This document shows positions 52,335 to 61,383 of a stretch of 64,000 nt of DNA, piece after piece; position 1 is the stretch's first letter; every line of letters starts with the position of its first letter. A program made the position numbers and the translations under genes. The notes beneath the pieces are model-generated. The model did no database searches. It saw only the letters and a program-made list of their open reading frames with translations, and had not been told where the DNA came from. The DNA comes from Neotamlana sedimentorum. Lineage in GTDB: Bacteria > Bacteroidota > Bacteroidia > Flavobacteriales > Flavobacteriaceae. The stretch covers positions 248,001-312,000 of the forward strand of contig NZ_JTDW01000001.1 in NCBI RefSeq assembly GCF_000943565.1, written 5' to 3'.

Positions 52335-53309
52335 TTATTTAAGAGCTTCTTCAATAGCGTTATCAAATAAATCACTCATGCTAATTCCAGCCGCGGCGGC
52401 TTGTTGTGGTAAAATACTAGCTTTTGTTAAACCGGGAATAGTGTTCATTTCTAGTAAATAGGGCTCGTCGTTTTTAAAAATATATTCGCTTCTGCTAAAG
52501 CCTTTCATTTTTAAAACTTCGTATACTTTTTTAGCGACAGCTATAACATTTTCTTCTTGTGTTTTGTTTAATCTGGCTGGAGTTATTTCTTGAGATTTAC
52601 CTAAATATTTAGCTTCGTAATCGAAAAAATCGTTTTCACTAACAATTTCCGTAATTGGTAATACTTTGGTTTCGCCTTTATAAGTTATAACACCTATAGA
52701 AACTTCGGTGCCATCTAAGAAGGATTCGATTATAATTTCGTCATCTTCTTTAAAAGCGACATTAATAGCATTTTGTAAATCTTCTTGTTTATGTACTTTG
52801 GTAACTCCAAAACTACTTCCTGCTTTATTAGCTTTAACAAAGCATGGTAAGCCTACTTTTTTAATAATAGTATCTTCGTTTATGGTGTCGCCTAAGTTTA
52901 AATAAAATGATTCGGCTGTTTTTATACCATAAGGTTTTAAAATACTTAAAAAATCACGTTTATTAAATGTAATTCCGGCTTGGTACATGTTACAACTGGT
53001 GTGAGGAATGCCCAACAACTCCAAATAACCTTGCATATAACCATCTTCTCCTGGAGCACCATGAATAGCGTTAAATACACAATCGAAGGTTATTTTTTTT
53101 GTATTAACGGAAACTGAAAAATCGTGTTTATTTACAGGGAATTCGTTTTCATTGTCATCAACATAAACCCATTTTTCTTTAAAAATATGAATGCGGTAAG
53201 CATGGTATTTTTCGGAATCTAAAACTTCGTAAACTACATTTCCACTTTTTAAAGAAATTTGATATTCGCTAGAATATCCGCCCATAATTATGGCTATATT
53301 TTTTTTCAT
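52335..53309 (-). CDS. ddl: D-alanine-D-alanine ligase
   Basis: Makes D-Ala-D-Ala for peptidoglycan. 324 residues of the ATP-grasp fold: IAIIMGGYSSEYQISLKSG, HGAPGEDGYMQGYLELLGIP, LPCFVKANKAGSSFGVTKVH (ATP lid), EVSIGVITYKG and LLEMNTIPGLTKAS (Mg-binding). Complete. It is divergent from the PASTA gene, sharing a 139-nt region with promoter-like elements and a palindrome. Confidence 0.97.
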   Translation of the reverse strand: MKKNIAIIMGGYSSEYQISLKSGNVVYEVLDSEKYHAYRIHIFKEKWVYVDDNENEFPVNKHDFSVSVNTKKITFDCVFNAIHGAPGEDGYMQGYLELLGIPHTSCNMYQAGITFNKRDFLSILKPYGIKTAESFYLNLGDTINEDTIIKKVGLPCFVKANKAGSSFGVTKVHKQEDLQNAINVAFKEDDEIIIESFLDGTEVSIGVITYKGETKVLPITEIVSENDFFDYEAKYLGKSQEITPARLNKTQEENVIAVAKKVYEVLKMKGFSRSEYIFKNDEPYLLEMNTIPGLTKASILPQQAAAAGISMSDLFDNAIEEALK

Positions 53310-53448: not shown

Positions 53449-54009
53449 ATGAGTCTCGTAAAATTCCTTTTCAGTAAATCTTTTTTAAAACAAATAGTAT
53501 TGGCAGTAGTTGCTGTTGTACTATTATGTTTCATACTTTTAAAATGGTTAAATGTGTCTACAAACCATGGTAATTTCGAGATGGTGCCCGATTTAAAAGG
53601 CAAATCAATAAGTGTAGCTCAGGTGGAATTGGAAGATAATAACTTGGTTATGCAAATTCAAGATTCAGCAAACTATAATCCCGATTATCCTAAGTTTTCG
53701 GTTATAGAACAAGATCCAATTGCTGGCGCTAAAGTTAAAGAAAACCGTAAAATTTACATTACCTTAAATCCGTCGGGATACCGTAAAATAAGAGTTCCAG
53801 ATGGTTTAATCGATAAAACATTCCGCCAAGTAAAACCAACGTTAGAAGCTTTAGGTTTTAAAATTGGTAACATTAGTTATGTGGATAATTTAGGTAAGGA
53901 TATGGTTTTAAAATTATCGCATAAAGGAAAGCCTTTGGAAGCTGGTGAAAAGCTAGCTAAAACGTCTGTGATAGATTTAGTGCTTGGTAACGGTAACAGA
54001 CCAGAATAA
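53449..54009 (+). CDS. PASTA-domain membrane protein
   Basis: 186-residue inner membrane protein: one transmembrane segment (about 13-32) then two PASTA domains in the periplasm (FEMVPDLKGKSISVAQVELE and IRVPDGLIDKTFRQVKPTL). PASTA domains bind peptidoglycan precursors or related fragments in other proteins. There is no kinase or transpeptidase domain here, so it is a free-standing sensor or scaffold. It overlaps rluD by 1 nt (TAATG). Next to ddl, a peptidoglycan link is plausible. Confidence 0.85.
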   Translation: MSLVKFLFSKSFLKQIVLAVVAVVLLCFILLKWLNVSTNHGNFEMVPDLKGKSISVAQVELEDNNLVMQIQDSANYNPDYPKFSVIEQDPIAGAKVKENRKIYITLNPSGYRKIRVPDGLIDKTFRQVKPTLEALGFKIGNISYVDNLGKDMVLKLSHKGKPLEAGEKLAKTSVIDLVLGNGNRPE

Positions 54010-55070: not shown

Positions 55071-55703
55071 TTATGGTTTTAATTTAGAGTCTTCTATTTC
55101 TTCAGTTAAATGATCTAAATACAGAATACCATTTAAATGATCGATTTCATGCTGAAAAATTACGGCAGTAAAACCTTTAATAGTTTCTGCTTTATGCTCG
55201 CCTTCCAAAGTGTCGTATTCAATATCTATAATTTGCGAACGACTATTTAAAGTTTCGCGGCGGTCTGGAATAGATAAGCAACCTTCTGTAACGGTTTGTT
55301 TTTCTTTAGAATATCCAACAATTTTAGGGTTTAAATACACTTCAAAAGGTAAGTTTTGTTTATCTAATCGTTGTACCCAAATAATGTTTTTTAAAATACC
55401 AACTTGGGGTGCTGCAATACCAACACCCAACGAAGCGCTATCGGTAACAGTAGCATAAAGGCGTTGAGCAAAAAGTTGAAGCGCTGCATTTTTAGGTTCG
55501 GGGTTTATATAGCTGCTTTTTTTACGTAGTAATAGCGAATCGGTTTTATTTGTGATTTTATAAACTCGCATGGGAGCGTTGCCATCTGCTGCTTTAATGA
55601 GTTTTAGTTCTTTGTTTGAAAAGGCATTTTTAACCGAGCTTTTTGCAATAGAGCAGGATGCTAAAATTAATACTAAACATATAGTGGCATAAGTAGTTTT
55701 CAT
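55071..55703 (-). CDS. def: Peptide deformylase with lipoprotein signal
   Basis: Removes N-formyl groups from peptides with a metal ion. Start chosen at MKTTYATICLVLILASCSIA, which gives 210 residues with a bacterial lipoprotein signal ending in the lipobox LASC; the earlier Met would hide it. All three PDF motifs are intact: GVGIAAPQVG, EGCLSIP and QHEIDHLNG (metal-binding His pair and catalytic Glu). A deformylase exported as a lipoprotein is unusual since formyl-methionine removal normally occurs in the cytosol. It could serve on exported peptides or have another substrate. It is 103 nt after rodA. Confidence 0.85.
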   Translation of the reverse strand: MKTTYATICLVLILASCSIAKSSVKNAFSNKELKLIKAADGNAPMRVYKITNKTDSLLLRKKSSYINPEPKNAALQLFAQRLYATVTDSASLGVGIAAPQVGILKNIIWVQRLDKQNLPFEVYLNPKIVGYSKEKQTVTEGCLSIPDRRETLNSRSQIIDIEYDTLEGEHKAETIKGFTAVIFQHEIDHLNGILYLDHLTEEIEDSKLKP

Positions 55704-55805
55704 AAATAGGGAATTATAGAAATTAGTCTCAAGGTAAGCCATGAGAAACTATAAGGTACAAAAGTTATTATTAATCTCGATTATAGCGTAAATGAAATGG
55801 CGAGG

Positions 55806-57083
55806 TTACCATTCGTTTATTCTATTAGAATCTAATTTAATAAAAATAAACAACAAAATAGTAAAAGCCCAAAGTCCAGATCCGCCATAACTAAACATAG
55901 GTAGCGGGATTCCAATGGTAGGAATTAAACCCATAACCATGCCAATATTTACAAAAAAGTGAATAAAAATTATACCTGCAACGCTGTAACCATAAACACG
56001 GCTAAATTGCGATTTTTGTAATTCGGCAAGGTGTAATATTCTAAGAAGTAGTAATACAAAAGTAACCACTACAAAAGTACTACCTAGGAAACCCCATTCT
56101 TCGCCAACGGTGCTAAAAATATAATCGGTGTGTTGTTCGGGTACAAACTTACCTGTAGTTCTAGTTCCTTCTAAAAAACCTCTACCTGTAAGACCTCCAG
56201 AGCTTATAGCTTTTTCCGATTCGTTTAGATTATAGGCAAAAGTTTTTTTCATGGCTTCAAGTTTTGCAGGGTCTTTTTCTAAACGCAGCCATAAACTTAT
56301 GCGGTCTTGTTGGTGTGGTTTTAAAATACTTTGATAGAAGAATTTAACGCCAAAAGAAATGGCAATTGCAGCAATGGCAATGAAAATTGATTGATAAATT
56401 CTGAAAGGTTTTTTGCTGAAATAATGCATAGCAACAACCACAACAATTGCGATAATTGAAGCTATAATAAATCCGAATTTTAAAGATAAAATAGCTAAAA
56501 TTATTGCAGAAAAAGCCGTTATTAAATAGGCTTTTGGCAGACCTTCGCGAAATAAAACATAAATAAAAGCACCATAAACAATAGTACTACCTGTGTCGTT
56601 TTGTAGTAATACTAAAATGGCAGGAATACCAATAATTGCAAATGTGCGAAGTTGGTCTGTAAAGGTTTTTATATTGGTGTTTAAATCGCTTAAATGTTTA
56701 GCTACAGCTAGTGCTGTGGCACTTTTAGCAAACTCACTAGGTTGAATAGTGAAACTACCAATGCCATACCAAGACGTAGCGCCATTTACATTTTTACCAA
56801 AAATGAAAAGACCAACCAAGCTTAACATAGAAATGATGTAAATAATACTAGCAAAACGCTCGTAAAATTTAGCATCAATTGCTAAAACCAAAACAATTAA
56901 TATTAGGTTTAAACAAATAAAAATGAGTTGTTTACCGTAAGGTTGACTTAAATCGAAATAATTTATATCTGTACCAACATGAGAGGCCGATAAAATATTT
57001 AGCCAACCAAAACCAACCAAAAGAAAGAAAAGTAAAATGGTAATCCAATCGAATTTAAAATGTCTGTTAGTATCTCTAACCAT
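55806..57083 (-). CDS. rodA: Rod shape-determining protein RodA (SEDS glycosyltransferase)
   Basis: Polymerises lipid II during lateral wall synthesis. 425 residues, about ten hydrophobic segments, SEDS features such as YGIGSFTIQPSEFAKSATAL, EEWGFLGSTFVVVTFVLLL and FVNIGMVMGLIPTIGIPLPM near the end. It partners with the transpeptidase PBP2, whose gene overlaps it by 1 nt. Last gene of the mreB-mreC-mreD-mrdA-rodA group. Confidence 0.95.
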   Translation of the reverse strand: MVRDTNRHFKFDWITILLFFLLVGFGWLNILSASHVGTDINYFDLSQPYGKQLIFICLNLILIVLVLAIDAKFYERFASIIYIISMLSLVGLFIFGKNVNGATSWYGIGSFTIQPSEFAKSATALAVAKHLSDLNTNIKTFTDQLRTFAIIGIPAILVLLQNDTGSTIVYGAFIYVLFREGLPKAYLITAFSAIILAILSLKFGFIIASIIAIVVVVAMHYFSKKPFRIYQSIFIAIAAIAISFGVKFFYQSILKPHQQDRISLWLRLEKDPAKLEAMKKTFAYNLNESEKAISSGGLTGRGFLEGTRTTGKFVPEQHTDYIFSTVGEEWGFLGSTFVVVTFVLLLLRILHLAELQKSQFSRVYGYSVAGIIFIHFFVNIGMVMGLIPTIGIPLPMFSYGGSGLWAFTILLFIFIKLDSNRINEW

Positions 57084-59020
57084 TAATTTTCGGTGTTATT
57101 TAATTGGTTTAATTGTTGTTTTAATTTCCAATAGGTTTTTTCGTCTACGCTTTGTAGTGTGGTGTAACCGTTAATTTTAAAAGGTTCTCCCGAATATGGT
57201 TTTGCATATTCATCTTCAAGAGAGTGGCGTAGTAACCAATCTTCTAAATCGGTTCTGGTGATTTCGCCTTTAATATGTTTTTCAATCATTAAACTGGCCA
57301 CTTTTCCTGCAAATCGACTTCCCCAATAACCGTTTTCAACAAAAACGGCAATAGCTATTTTTGGATTTTCTTTAGGAGCGAATGCAACAAATATAGAATG
57401 ATCGGTAAGTTGTGTTTTTACACTATCTATTTTTACAAAATTTTCAACGGTACCTGTTTTACCACAAATATCAATGTCTTTTACCTTTAAAGATGATGCG
57501 GTACCTTTTTCGTATACAGCAAGCATCCCTTCAATTACAGGCTCAAAGTGTTCTCGGTTAATAGAGGTGAATTTTGGTTTTGTAAAATTTTCAGGAAGCG
57601 TTTCACCTTCAATATGTTTTATAATATGCGGCGTGTAAAAGTAACCCCGATTTGCAATAGCTGCAGCCATATTTGCGAGCTGAATAGGAGTAGTAGCAAC
57701 TTCACCCTGGCCAATGGCATTAGATATGGTGTAAGTGGAGTAGAAGGTTTTCGGGTAAATGTGTTTGTAAAAGTCTCGATCTGGAATACGACCTTTTTGA
57801 CCAACAAATAAATCGTTGTTTAAAAAGTTGCCAAGTCCAAAACTTTTAGCATGTTTACTCCAAGTATCAATACCTTCGGATGCATTACCAGTTTTATCTA
57901 ATATTTTTCTATAGGCCGTAGCAAAATAGGCGTTGCACGATCTTTGAATGCCCGTAATCATGTTGTTTCTTGTGCCGTAATTACAATGGCATTTCATAAA
58001 ACGATTGCCGTATTTATAACCTCGGTAACAAGTTACGTGTTCGTTTTCGTCCATGACACCTTCTTGAAGTGCAATAAGAGCATTCATTAATTTAAATGGA
58101 GACCCAGGTTCGTATACACCTTGTAAGCTACGGTTAAACAGTGGTTTTGCAATGGAATCGTTATATAGCTTTGTGAAATTTTTAGAACGATTTCGGCCAA
58201 CCAAAATATTAGGGTCGTAGGTTGGAGCTGCTACCATAGCTAGAATTTCACCTGTTTTAGGTTCTAGAGCAATAACACCACCACGTTTATTTTTCATTAA
58301 TAATTCGCCGTATGCTTGAAGTTGCGCATCAATGGTAATGGTAATGTCTTTTCCTTGTTGTGGTATAGTGTCGAATTTTCCGTCTTTATAAGGACCAATG
58401 TTACGGTTAAATCTATCTTTTTGGATGAATTTAATACCTTTTGTACCTCTTAAAATTTCTTCATACGAAGCTTCAACGCCTTGTTTACCAATTAAATCGC
58501 CCATTCGGTAATATGGGTTTTTGTTTATGGTGGCGTAGTTTACTTCGCCAATATCGCCTAAAACGTTGGCGCCAATTGTGGTTTGATAATCGCGAAGTGA
58601 GCGTTTTTGAATATAAAACCCTTCAAATTTTCGCATTTTTTCCTGTAAAACAGCATAATCTTCTTTTGAAAGTTGAGGTACAAAAGGTGATGGTAATCGC
58701 GGTGAATAGTGATAGGCTTTATCGTATTTTTTTATGAAATCTTCTTTCGTGATTTTTAAGAGCGTACAAAACTCTAATGTATCCAATGGTTTTACTTCAC
58801 GCGGAATAACCATAACATCGTATGTTGGTTGGTTGGCTACTAAAAGTTGGCCATTTCGATCATAAACAAAACCGCGTTTTGGGTAATCGTAAACTTTTCT
58901 AATGGCATTGTCTTCAAATAAATTATTTGTGTCGGTTTTATAAATTTGAAGATAAAAAAGCCTAGAAATGAATAAGATGCCAACGCCAATTACAGAAATA
59001 AAAAGTAATAGTTGTCTCAT
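57083..59020 (-). CDS. mrdA: Penicillin-binding protein 2 (transpeptidase of cell elongation)
   Basis: Cross-links peptidoglycan during elongation. 645 residues: N-terminal transmembrane helix (3-24), dimerisation domain (RGFVYDRNGQLLVANQPTYD), and a transpeptidase domain with the serine nucleophile in PGSPFK (Ser307), SCNAYFA (SxN) and CGKTGT (KTG). Linker insertion around 90-200 is as usual for this group. It overlaps mreD by 4 nt and rodA by 1 nt. Confidence 0.96.
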   Translation of the reverse strand: MRQLLLFISVIGVGILFISRLFYLQIYKTDTNNLFEDNAIRKVYDYPKRGFVYDRNGQLLVANQPTYDVMVIPREVKPLDTLEFCTLLKITKEDFIKKYDKAYHYSPRLPSPFVPQLSKEDYAVLQEKMRKFEGFYIQKRSLRDYQTTIGANVLGDIGEVNYATINKNPYYRMGDLIGKQGVEASYEEILRGTKGIKFIQKDRFNRNIGPYKDGKFDTIPQQGKDITITIDAQLQAYGELLMKNKRGGVIALEPKTGEILAMVAAPTYDPNILVGRNRSKNFTKLYNDSIAKPLFNRSLQGVYEPGSPFKLMNALIALQEGVMDENEHVTCYRGYKYGNRFMKCHCNYGTRNNMITGIQRSCNAYFATAYRKILDKTGNASEGIDTWSKHAKSFGLGNFLNNDLFVGQKGRIPDRDFYKHIYPKTFYSTYTISNAIGQGEVATTPIQLANMAAAIANRGYFYTPHIIKHIEGETLPENFTKPKFTSINREHFEPVIEGMLAVYEKGTASSLKVKDIDICGKTGTVENFVKIDSVKTQLTDHSIFVAFAPKENPKIAIAVFVENGYWGSRFAGKVASLMIEKHIKGEITRTDLEDWLLRHSLEDEYAKPYSGEPFKINGYTTLQSVDEKTYWKLKQQLNQLNNTEN

Positions 59021-59523
59021 CGTGTTTTCCTACTAAAAACTATTGTTATTGATATGCTAATTAAAATAGTAAATATACTAGAGAATAACGTTTTTTGAAG
59101 TACTAAAATTATTTTACTCATGTTAAAAACTTCAAAACTAAACAGAATAAAATGATGTATGGCTGTTAATATGGTAAGGTACATTAGTTTCGATCCAAAA
59201 TCGACAGCGTTAAACTTTACAGTTTGGTGTTCGTAACTGGTTCCGAAGGCGAATTTTAAAACTACAGGGCGAACGTAGGCAATAAAAACCGATGCGCTTG
59301 CGTGAATACCACCAGTATCTAAAAATAAATCGATGCTTAAACCAAGTAAAAAACTAATTAATATTAATACTAAACGGTTGTTTTTAACAGGAAAAAGAGC
59401 AATAAATAAAATATAAGGGTAGGGGTTAATGTATCCTAAAAAATTAATATGATTAAATATTAGCACTTGCACAAGAACCAACGCGAAAAAATGAACGGTA
59501 TATATGGAGAATAAGTTATTCAT
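59017..59523 (-). CDS. mreD: Rod shape-determining protein MreD
   Basis: Inner membrane protein of the elongasome. 168 residues, five to six hydrophobic segments (YTVHFFALVLVQVLIFNH; YILFIALFPV; LVLILISFLLGLSIDLF), which fits MreD in size and topology although sequence conservation is low. Overlaps mreC by 8 nt and mrdA by 4 nt. The gene context makes the call firm. Confidence 0.88.
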   Translation of the reverse strand: MNNLFSIYTVHFFALVLVQVLIFNHINFLGYINPYPYILFIALFPVKNNRLVLILISFLLGLSIDLFLDTGGIHASASVFIAYVRPVVLKFAFGTSYEHQTVKFNAVDFGSKLMYLTILTAIHHFILFSFEVFNMSKIILVLQKTLFSSIFTILISISITIVFSRKTR

Positions 59524-60328
59524 TTTCTAGGTTAATAATTTCTTGTTTATCTACGTTTTCTATAATGTAAACATGCTCTAAATTAGTCATGTCGTTAAAT
59601 AATTGCACATCAATTTCATAATAATTTTCGGCGGCATCAAGTTGAAATGTTTTAATAACGCCAATACCAATGTTTTTTGGGAAAATAGACGATCGTCCAG
59701 AAGTAATAATAGTATCGCCAACGTTTACTTTAGCCACTTTTGGAATGTCGGTTAGCTGAACAAGTTGATACGAATCACCATTCCAAGTTAATGAGCCGTA
59801 ATGATTCGATTTTTTTAATTTTGCACTAATTCTACTCGTCGTGTTTAAAACCGATAACACAGTGGCATAATTATTACTAGTTTTATCGATAATTCCGATA
59901 ATGCCTTTTGATGAAATAACACCAAAATCCTGTTTTATACTATCATTTTCACCTTTATTTATGGTTAAAATGTTATTGGTTAAAGAATAATTATTTTTAA
60001 TAATATTAGCATTGTAAAATTTATACAATGCGTTAAATGATGTAGAATCGGTATAAGTAGAATCTGTAGAAATTTGAGCATTGTTAATTAAGGAACGTAA
60101 TTTACGGTTTTCTTCAGCAAGCAATTCATTTTGAGATTTTAAATTAAAATATCTGCTGATGTTATTTATAGAATTGTAAACGCCACCAGTTAAAAAGTTA
60201 GCCGAATTTATAAACTTGCTTTTATGGTAAGAATGCGATTGAATCGTAAAAATAAGCGAGATACAAAACAACAAAAAGAACAACAAAAAGTTTTTGTTCC
60301 TTATTATGAAATTAATAATTTGTTGCAT
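59516..60328 (-). CDS. mreC: Rod shape-determining protein MreC
   Basis: Periplasmic scaffold of the elongasome. 270 residues: N-terminal transmembrane helix (11-30), a coiled coil (ISRYFNLKSQNELLAEENRK), and a beta-sandwich core (NNILTINKGENDSIKQDFGV; KIIGIIDKTSNNYATVLSVL-like). Complete. It follows mreB by 26 nt. Confidence 0.93.
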   Translation of the reverse strand: MQQIINFIIRNKNFLLFFLLFCISLIFTIQSHSYHKSKFINSANFLTGGVYNSINNISRYFNLKSQNELLAEENRKLRSLINNAQISTDSTYTDSTSFNALYKFYNANIIKNNYSLTNNILTINKGENDSIKQDFGVISSKGIIGIIDKTSNNYATVLSVLNTTSRISAKLKKSNHYGSLTWNGDSYQLVQLTDIPKVAKVNVGDTIITSGRSSIFPKNIGIGVIKTFQLDAAENYYEIDVQLFNDMTNLEHVYIIENVDKQEIINLENE

Positions 60329-60354: not shown

Positions 60355-61383
60355 TTACTTAATCAATACACTTTTGTATTTGGCTAAATTTTTAAGTGTT
60401 ATACCAGTACCACGCACTACAGCTCTTAAAGGGTCTTCGGCAATATAAACTGGTAAATCTGTTTTTTGCGATAAACGCTTATCTAATCCACGAAGCATAG
60501 AACCACCACCTGCAAGATAAATACCTGTATTATAAATATCGGCAGCCAATTCTGGTGGTGTTTGCCCAAGGGTTTCCATTACGGCATCTTCTATTCTAAG
60601 AATAGATTTATCGAGTGCTTTTGCTATTTCTCGGTAAGAAATAGAAACCTGTTTAGGCTTTCCAGTTAATAAATCACGTCCTTGAACGCTCATATCTTCT
60701 GGCGGAACTTCTAAATCTTCGGTAGCTGCACCAATTTGAATTTTTATTTTTTCGGCAGTACGTTCACCAACGTAAAGGTTGTGTTGTGTACGCATGTAAT
60801 ACACAATATCGTTTGTAAATACATCACCTGCAATTTTAACCGATTTATCACAAACAATACCACCAAGCGCAATAACTGCAATTTCGGTAGTACCACCACC
60901 TATATCTACAACCATATTTCCTTTTGGTTGCATAATATCGACGCCAATACCAATAGCTGCTGCCATAGGTTCGTGAATTAAGTAAACTTCTTTACCATTT
61001 ACACGTTCGGCACTTTCTTTTACCGCTCGCATTTCAACCTCGGTAATTCCAGAAGGAATACAAATTACCATTCGTAATGCTGGCGTAAAAAATTTCTTTT
61101 TTAAAGCTGGTATGTTTTTAATAAACATACTTATCATTTGCTCTGAAGCATCAAAATCGGCAATTACACCGTCTTTTAATGGGCGAATGGTTTTTATGTT
61201 TTCATGGGTTTTTCCTTGCATTAAACTGGCTTCGTGACCAACTGCAATAATTTTGTTGTTTACTCGGTCTCGAGCTACAATGGAAGGCGAATCGACCACA
61301 ACTTTGTCGTTATGAATAATTAAAGTGTTAGCCGTACCTAAGTCTATTGCAATTTCTTCAGTTAGGAAGTCAAAAAATCCCAT
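60355..61383 (-). CDS. mreB: Rod shape-determining protein MreB (bacterial actin)
   Basis: Forms filaments under the inner membrane that guide wall synthesis. 342 residues of the actin fold: phosphate 1 IDLGTANTLI, connect and phosphate 2 (VVDIGGGTTEIAVIALGGI), adenosine motif LAGGGSMLRGLDKRL, and an amphipathic start MGFFDFLTEEIAIDLG that can bind the membrane. It heads the shape operon. A 21-bp inverted repeat lies between its start and the purH stop. Confidence 0.97.
   Translation of the reverse strand: MGFFDFLTEEIAIDLGTANTLIIHNDKVVVDSPSIVARDRVNNKIIAVGHEASLMQGKTHENIKTIRPLKDGVIADFDASEQMISMFIKNIPALKKKFFTPALRMVICIPSGITEVEMRAVKESAERVNGKEVYLIHEPMAAAIGIGVDIMQPKGNMVVDIGGGTTEIAVIALGGIVCDKSVKIAGDVFTNDIVYYMRTQHNLYVGERTAEKIKIQIGAATEDLEVPPEDMSVQGRDLLTGKPKQVSISYREIAKALDKSILRIEDAVMETLGQTPPELAADIYNTGIYLAGGGSMLRGLDKRLSQKTDLPVYIAEDPLRAVVRGTGITLKNLAKYKSVLIK

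Follow-up and report, generated by a model that had tools for sequence, protein, structure and literature searches.

A peptide deformylase predicted to be an exported lipoprotein in Neotamlana sedimentorum and its relatives

We found that the window, a stretch of 64,000 nucleotides from the genome of Neotamlana sedimentorum, encodes a peptide deformylase (PDF) of 210 residues plus stop (55071..55703, minus strand) that belongs to a known family but has a predicted location that is new for it. Its signal sequence predicts a location in the cell envelope, and we infer that the protein is lipidated, faces the periplasm and is active as a deformylase. We consider it rather probable that it works as a periplasm-facing, membrane-anchored accessory deformylase, acting off the ribosome on formyl-methionine chains or peptides that have escaped the enzyme of the cytosol.

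The gene and its deformylase core

The gene was assigned by reading of the open frame, by Pfam and NCBIfam profiles and by its orthologues, and runs on the minus strand in a single frame from an ATG at 55703 to a TAA stop at 55073-55071. The coordinates, the three intact motifs and the LASC signal given by an earlier, sequence-only reading of this DNA all proved correct when the frame was read again. An alternative start at 55742, 13 codons upstream, is possible for this gene; since two loci of the same genus (L005 and L006) have no in-frame upstream ATG, 55703 is the better start. By profile, motifs and fold the product is a peptide deformylase: Pfam Pep_deformylase PF01327 matches it with E 8.8e-36 and 123.3 bits (cut-off 22.8), and TIGR00079 with 117.6 bits, above its cut-off of 103.95, while five further PDF models all score it below their own cut-offs. 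By sequence it is also PDF-like when set against solved enzymes, with 24-35% identity to the 50 best PDB chains listed. An AlphaFold model (pLDDT 88.9) predicts a PDF fold; all 50 best PDB matches listed for it are PDFs, the top one being 6jf7, of class I type b, with a TM of 0.89 by target length.

The sections consulted of PMC12690207 define the PDF motifs as GxGxAAxQ (I), EGCxS (II) and QHExDHLxG (III). Reading of the frame and alignment place motif I, GVGIAAPQ, at residues 93-100 (55404..55427), motif II, EGCLS, at residues 140-144 (55272..55286), and motif III, QHEIDHLNG, at residues 184-192 (55128..55154), all on the minus strand. Cys142 of motif II is presumably the metal ligand, by homology to Cys90 of E. 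coli. Counterparts of E. coli Gly45, Gln50, Cys90, Leu91, His132, Glu133 and His136, which we take to be the catalytic and metal-ligand residues, are present in 32/32 lipoprotein rows.

The gene is under purifying selection. Against three same-genus copies (Nei-Gojobori count, gaps excluded), the whole gene has a dN/dS of 0.11-0.14 and its mature part one of 0.09-0.12; with synonymous distances as high as 0.67-1.0, these ratios are rough. Taken by themselves, the 17 signal codons yield values of 0.38, 2.15 and 0.70, from a number of sites that is too small to carry weight. The signal sequence is nevertheless plainly less constrained than that of the enzyme part, and signal peptides usually vary more freely than the enzyme they carry. 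Pseudogene status was rejected for the window gene, given its intact frame and a dN/dS of 0.11-0.14. One exported-PDF copy in another genome (G366:C27:1424966-1425436) has two stops in the matched stretch and an open frame of 149 aa, and is probably a broken or truncated gene; an internal-stop flag in genome G318 is the end of the gene itself, and the same flag was raised in G355 and G828.

Signal sequences and the exported clade

Residues 1-17, MKTTYATICLVLILASC, are arranged like a lipoprotein signal, with a basic start, a hydrophobic core and an LASC box. The signal peptide, MKTTYATICLVLILAS, covers residues 1-16 (55656..55703, minus strand) by sequence reading and is of the same type in relatives; the lipobox LASC, at residues 14-17 (55653..55664, minus strand), fits both a permissive and a stricter E. 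coli-like pattern. The basic n-region, hydrophobic h-region and lipobox Cys together predict lipidation at Cys17, the first mature residue, on the strength of this reading and of a Cys in 85/85 aligned rows. Surface-export signals of Bacteroidota are acidic right after the lipidated Cys, as in K-(D/E)2, SDDDD and SDDFE, according to the parts consulted of PMC5080379. In the lipoprotein rows an acidic residue at +2 to +7 is absent from 81/85 and two or more occur in none, and 77/85 have a basic residue there. Because the acidic surface-export signal is missing, the window protein does not resemble a surface-exposed Bacteroidota lipoprotein, and the periplasmic side rather than the surface would be expected.

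A scan of named genomes, from which the best 80 loci were taken (50-86% identity over the best segment), returned records titled as Bacteroidota, three from Ignavibacteria and one from Neomarinimicrobiota; cultured carriers of the gene among them include Algibacter lectus DSM 15365 (L043) and Leeuwenhoekiella marinoflava DSM 3653 (L093). A hydrophobic N-terminal stretch followed by a Cys was present in all 80 (79 by script and L100 by eye), so that the lipoprotein signal with LASC proposed in the earlier reading is of a type kept across the orthologues fetched. Among 87 open frames counted (L003-L009 and L033-L112), 84 have the permissive lipobox and 44 the stricter one; the permissive pattern is missed by three, namely L009, which has a type I signal and no Cys, L077 (VWSC) and L100 (LTSC), the last of which, despite its LTSC, was left out of the alignment for having EAC in place of EGC. 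Cys17 is conserved in 85/85 aligned relatives (82 distinct sequences, since L004/L033, L005/L034 and L007/L037 are identical pairs), a count that is partly built in, because the choice of start demanded a Cys at 14-33; only L009 of the 87 frames has none in that range. In a control set of 24 PDFs, all from the same order and of ordinary cytosolic types, none has a hydrophobic N-terminal stretch and 7/24 have a chance Cys near position 17, and the peak 10-residue hydropathy is 0.24-2.08 versus 2.27-3.78 in the 85 lipoprotein rows. At the level of sequence, conservation of Cys17 and of the predicted signal is confirmed to exceed chance.

In a neighbouring family, for which 35 of 84 loci were read, the copies carry type I signals (mostly ending in ...AQ, ...SQ or ...GQ, e.g. 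LNAQ, LFAQ, GFSQ) without a lipobox. The signal starts from the ATG in 33/35 loci, and in L158 and L166 it lies upstream of the script-chosen ATG, from another start codon. Hydropathy in this group overlaps that of the control, with three signals at 1.82-2.07, and two further signals score lower only because the start was set too far downstream. Motif II reads EGCLS in 17/35 loci and EGDLS in 18/35 (L115-L119, L166-L169, L171-L179), the latter having Asp for the metal-ligand Cys with HExxH and the Gln of motif I retained. Motif I is altered in two of the 35 (GVGIAGPQ, GVGIASPQ), and HExDH is found in 35/35. If metal is still bound by the EGD forms, the site would consist of two His and one Asp. 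A DoxX-like open frame (so named by sequence reading) and an exported protein recur at 17/35 type I loci, which are exactly the EGC ones.

In a tree of 73 rows, built without signal residues, rooted at the midpoint and with a bootstrap not fully settled, all 48 exported rows fall on one side of a branch supported at 98/99. The type I group (100/99) is nested among lipoprotein forms, and the Asp branch (99/87) lies inside the type I group. The lipid anchor likely came first and the type I signal later, a direction that is likely, not shown, because the bootstrap is unsettled and the root is a midpoint. The simplest history would be that the enzyme was exported once, lost its lipid anchor once and exchanged Cys for Asp once. 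The presence of two kinds of signal in one clade implies that different signals serve the same end, export. Predicted export is a conserved trait of the clade, because signals are kept in 80/80 relatives, the type I sister group appears exported too and the exported forms make up one clade.

The position of E. coli Leu125 is Phe in 48/48 exported rows and also in three cytosolic accessory PDFs; that of Ile86 is variable in lipoprotein forms and Gly in 16/16 type I rows, and that of Arg97 is Arg in 12/32 lipoprotein rows, the window's included. The tail after HExxH spans 11-29 residues in the 32 lipoprotein rows versus 27-46 in 22 cytosolic PDFs, E. coli included (21 in the window protein versus 45 in the canonical def of its own genome), and has a median net charge of -1 versus +9. 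Tails of the type I group are 28-44 residues long, with median charges of -2 in EGC and +1 in EGD forms, and the three cytosolic accessory PDFs have a median of -4. A short or uncharged tail is therefore neither specific to export nor universal, given these accessory enzymes at -4 and the type I lengths. The C-terminal region of E. coli PDF aids ribosome contact, according to the sections consulted of PMC12690207, and the low tail charge would fit, short of proof, a protein away from the ribosome. The window protein has neither the signal-less N terminus nor the basic C-terminal extension of a ribosome-linked housekeeping enzyme.

Distribution and gene neighbourhood

With a profile built from 38 rows (A1), positives at E<=1e-40 were found in at least 59/397 genomes of the same family and at least 7/296 genomes of the phylum (2 with lipoprotein forms and 5 from the neighbouring family), and at E<=1e-35 in at least 84/148 genomes of that neighbouring family; these counts may be lower bounds, because scoring was limited to the top 7 to 20 candidates in each genome. 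PF01327 finds two loci in the genome of the window (3.96 Mb, 51 contigs, 99.94% complete). The separate def that the earlier reading had expected elsewhere was located at G000:C3:44913-45404, scoring 175.8 bits versus 123.6 bits for the window locus; its sequence opens with MILPIVAYGDPVLRKKA, a signal is absent and the C-terminal tail is basic. The earlier interpretation, of an additional deformylase predicted to lie in the envelope, is thereby supported. At least two PDFs were present in 60/60 positive genomes searched again with PF01327 (the 59 and G318), the other copy scoring higher, and in 28/28 genomes picked from the 84 positives of the neighbouring family, the N terminus of the second PDF being read for the window genome's copy only. 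No relative at 60% identity or more was found on plasmids or phages, where 826 plasmid and 165 phage records match below 60%, the best 20 rows listed having 31-39% identity. A mobile accessory PDF was rejected as a class for this gene, which is without a close plasmid or phage relative. A further, signal-less accessory PDF type was seen at L010-L012, with the start MAVxEVIKMGNP and a short acidic tail, sharing 38-41% identity with the window protein in the matched segment.

The gene closes a run on the minus strand formed by mreB (60355..61383), mreC (59516..60328), an mreD-like gene (59017..59523; named by position only, with no Pfam match, and syntenic in relatives), mrdA, for a PBP2-type transpeptidase (57083..59020), and rodA (FTSW_RODA_SPOVE, 55806..57083), which lies directly upstream across a gap of 102 bp. 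The mreB, mreC and mrdA genes were named by Pfam, and rodA by Pfam and position. On its other side the lipoprotein gene ends 12 bp from a convergent pseudouridine synthase gene. Directly upstream rodA recurs at 32/80 named loci (L033-L065 without L056; the same-lineage L003-L008 as well), at 63/116 with overlapping locus sets pooled, and at 0/47 of the distant loci L066-L112, a few of which are short of upstream sequence. A role in the cell wall drawn from adjacency to these rod (elongasome) genes was rejected, the absence of rodA from the 47 distant loci pointing to a lineage-specific landing site. No recurring neighbour family was found in more than 5/47 of the loci L066-L112, counting open frames of at least 90 aa with overlapping frames set aside and several loci short. 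Nearby, 53449-54009 (plus strand) encodes a small membrane protein with a PASTA domain (PF03793) and no kinase part; it adjoins the pseudouridine synthase gene and stands opposite a D-Ala-D-Ala ligase-like gene at 52335-53309, the latter named from its sequence letters.

Proposed role and relation to known systems

In the role that we propose, the deformylase would be made as a prolipoprotein, exported via Sec, lipidated at Cys17 and tethered through a short linker to the outer (or inner) membrane on its periplasmic face, where it would deformylate by hydrolysis those N-formyl-methionyl chains or peptides that the cytosolic enzyme missed. The canonical def would carry out the cytosolic, ribosome-linked housekeeping deformylation. 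Candidate substrates could be membrane proteins of N-out topology, and formyl peptides that are set free in the periplasm or imported into it; alternatively, the benefit could come from unblocking formyl peptides for periplasmic peptidases. The parts consulted of two sources state that SRP keeps nascent signal sequences from being deformylated (PMC5454389) and, in general terms, that membrane or exported proteins escape the reaction (PMC12690207), so that formylated substrates may exist outside. The identity of the formylated substrate is the least certain part of the explanation, periplasmic formyl peptides being plausible. When a signal peptide is cleaved off, its fMet end stays on the cytosolic side, and the obvious source of fMet may therefore be out of reach. 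Both M24 proteins of the window genome are without a signal, and as no exported methionine aminopeptidase was found in that genome, ordinary Met excision could not follow outside. Because the gene is sparse (at least 59/397 and 7/296 genomes), most relatives with the same formylated N termini do without an exported PDF, and the patchy spread suggests that the enzyme brings an accessory gain, in using peptides or maintaining the envelope in certain conditions, and is not essential. The fit of just 44/87 frames to the stricter lipobox and the replacement of the metal-ligand Cys in one sister branch also count against the proposed role.

The patchy, accessory distribution and the predicted periplasm-facing position are also compatible with nutrient scavenging, in which formyl peptides of other cells or organelles would be unblocked for periplasmic aminopeptidases, and many of the named hosts belong to genera that, going by the record titles, we take to be known from marine or algal settings. 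However, no peptide-uptake or peptidase gene recurs alongside, consistent with the lack of any neighbour family in more than 5/47 distant loci, and we regard scavenging as unlikely, if far from negligible. The fold could instead have been repurposed in the envelope, either to act on a different N-acyl or formyl substrate or to serve in binding, with ordinary deformylation lost. The EGD branch of the sister group (18/35) shows that the metal site can change after export, and the lipoprotein branch has invariant residues beyond the motifs, such as Arg112, Asp114, Pro119, Phe120 and Glu121 (Pro119 being found outside this branch as well), but the window's own branch keeps the catalytic residues in 32/32 rows and its protein passes TIGR00079, which leaves such repurposing decidedly unlikely.

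Protection against natural PDF inhibitors, by binding the drug in the periplasm and not by replacing the target, has a precedent of sorts in an accessory V. cholerae PDF that lowers actinonin susceptibility, and Phe125 (48/48 exported rows) and Gly86 (16/16 type I rows) are two differences reported for V. cholerae Def2 in the sections consulted of PMC12690207. According to those same sections, however, these differences accompany weaker inhibitor binding and hence speak against a sponge (PMC12690207); three cytosolic accessory PDFs share Phe125, Arg97 is retained in the window protein, an exported enzyme cannot replace the cytosolic target, and plasmids and phages hold no match of 60% or more, unlike the case of mobile resistance PDFs. 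Protection by this route is very improbable. Cytosolic action through translation from an internal Met45, where the canonical PDF begins, would draw on the presence of this Met in 84/85 lipoprotein rows, one column off the canonical start Met. The same position is Phe (5/7) or Leu (8/9) in the sister group and hence looks like a structural hydrophobic residue; in addition, the upstream residues Phe28 and Ile36 are each conserved in 83/85 rows, the signal is kept throughout and another PDF is present anyway, and we give an internal start hardly any credence.

Beyond the proposed accessory role of the window protein, we tentatively hypothesise, as a possibility somewhat short of probable, that Bacteroidota and neighbouring phyla have a second, extracytoplasmic deformylation step, performed by a single old clade of exported PDFs that was at first lipid-anchored and, in one family, subsequently released from its anchor into the periplasm; there a branch would have exchanged Cys for Asp and so acquired a two-His, one-carboxylate site suited to the oxidising envelope. 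If this were true, bacterial N-terminal formyl processing would not be confined to the cytosol. Deformylation is treated as cytosolic and co-translational in the sections consulted of PMC12690207 and PMC5454389, with membrane and exported proteins named as escaping it, and if a deformylase is indeed both exported and conserved, some bacteria would handle leftover formyl groups outside, with a bearing on the fate of N-formyl peptides and on the purpose of many accessory PDFs. The natural Cys to Asp branch would also provide a ready test of the need for the metal-ligand Cys.

More than one PDF occurs in 48% of the species surveyed in PMC12690207, the most extensive accessory-PDF survey we found, going by its sections consulted; the terms lipoprotein, secreted, Bacteroid and Flavobacter are absent from its main text, and exported PDFs are unmentioned in those sections. 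We found no description of a PDF that is exported, secreted, periplasmic or a lipoprotein in the open-access literature searched, mostly at the level of titles and abstracts, and no published C90D variant among the literature matches listed. In the parts consulted of the remaining sources, the def protein of the planctomycete Tuwongella immobilis is in fraction S3 and that of E. coli in S1, and it is not called exported (PMC8567305), a PDF in the outer-membrane fraction of Ehrlichia is classed as cytoplasmic (PMC4339577), and PDF is named only as a zincin (PMC11674741).

Compared with known systems, the window protein shares its fold, motifs I-III and the size of its catalytic core with the class I type b PDF of Acinetobacter baumannii (6jf7), but differs from it in having a signal and a lipobox and in being predicted to be extracytoplasmic. 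The canonical def of its own genome likewise belongs to PF01327 and has the same motifs, whereas it lacks a signal, has 45 residues after HExxH with a basic tail and falls on the other side of the 98/99 branch. Accessory PDFs of V. cholerae and integrons (Def2) are similar in being a second PDF beside the housekeeping one and in having Phe125, and unlike the window protein they replace the canonical copy for growth and hence are cytosolic, according to the sections consulted of PMC12690207. A parallel in export is the type I-signal clade, which is nested in the exported clade and is itself exported by sequence, but which has a signal peptidase I-type site in place of a lipobox, a motif II divided between 17 EGC and 18 EGD loci, and longer tails.
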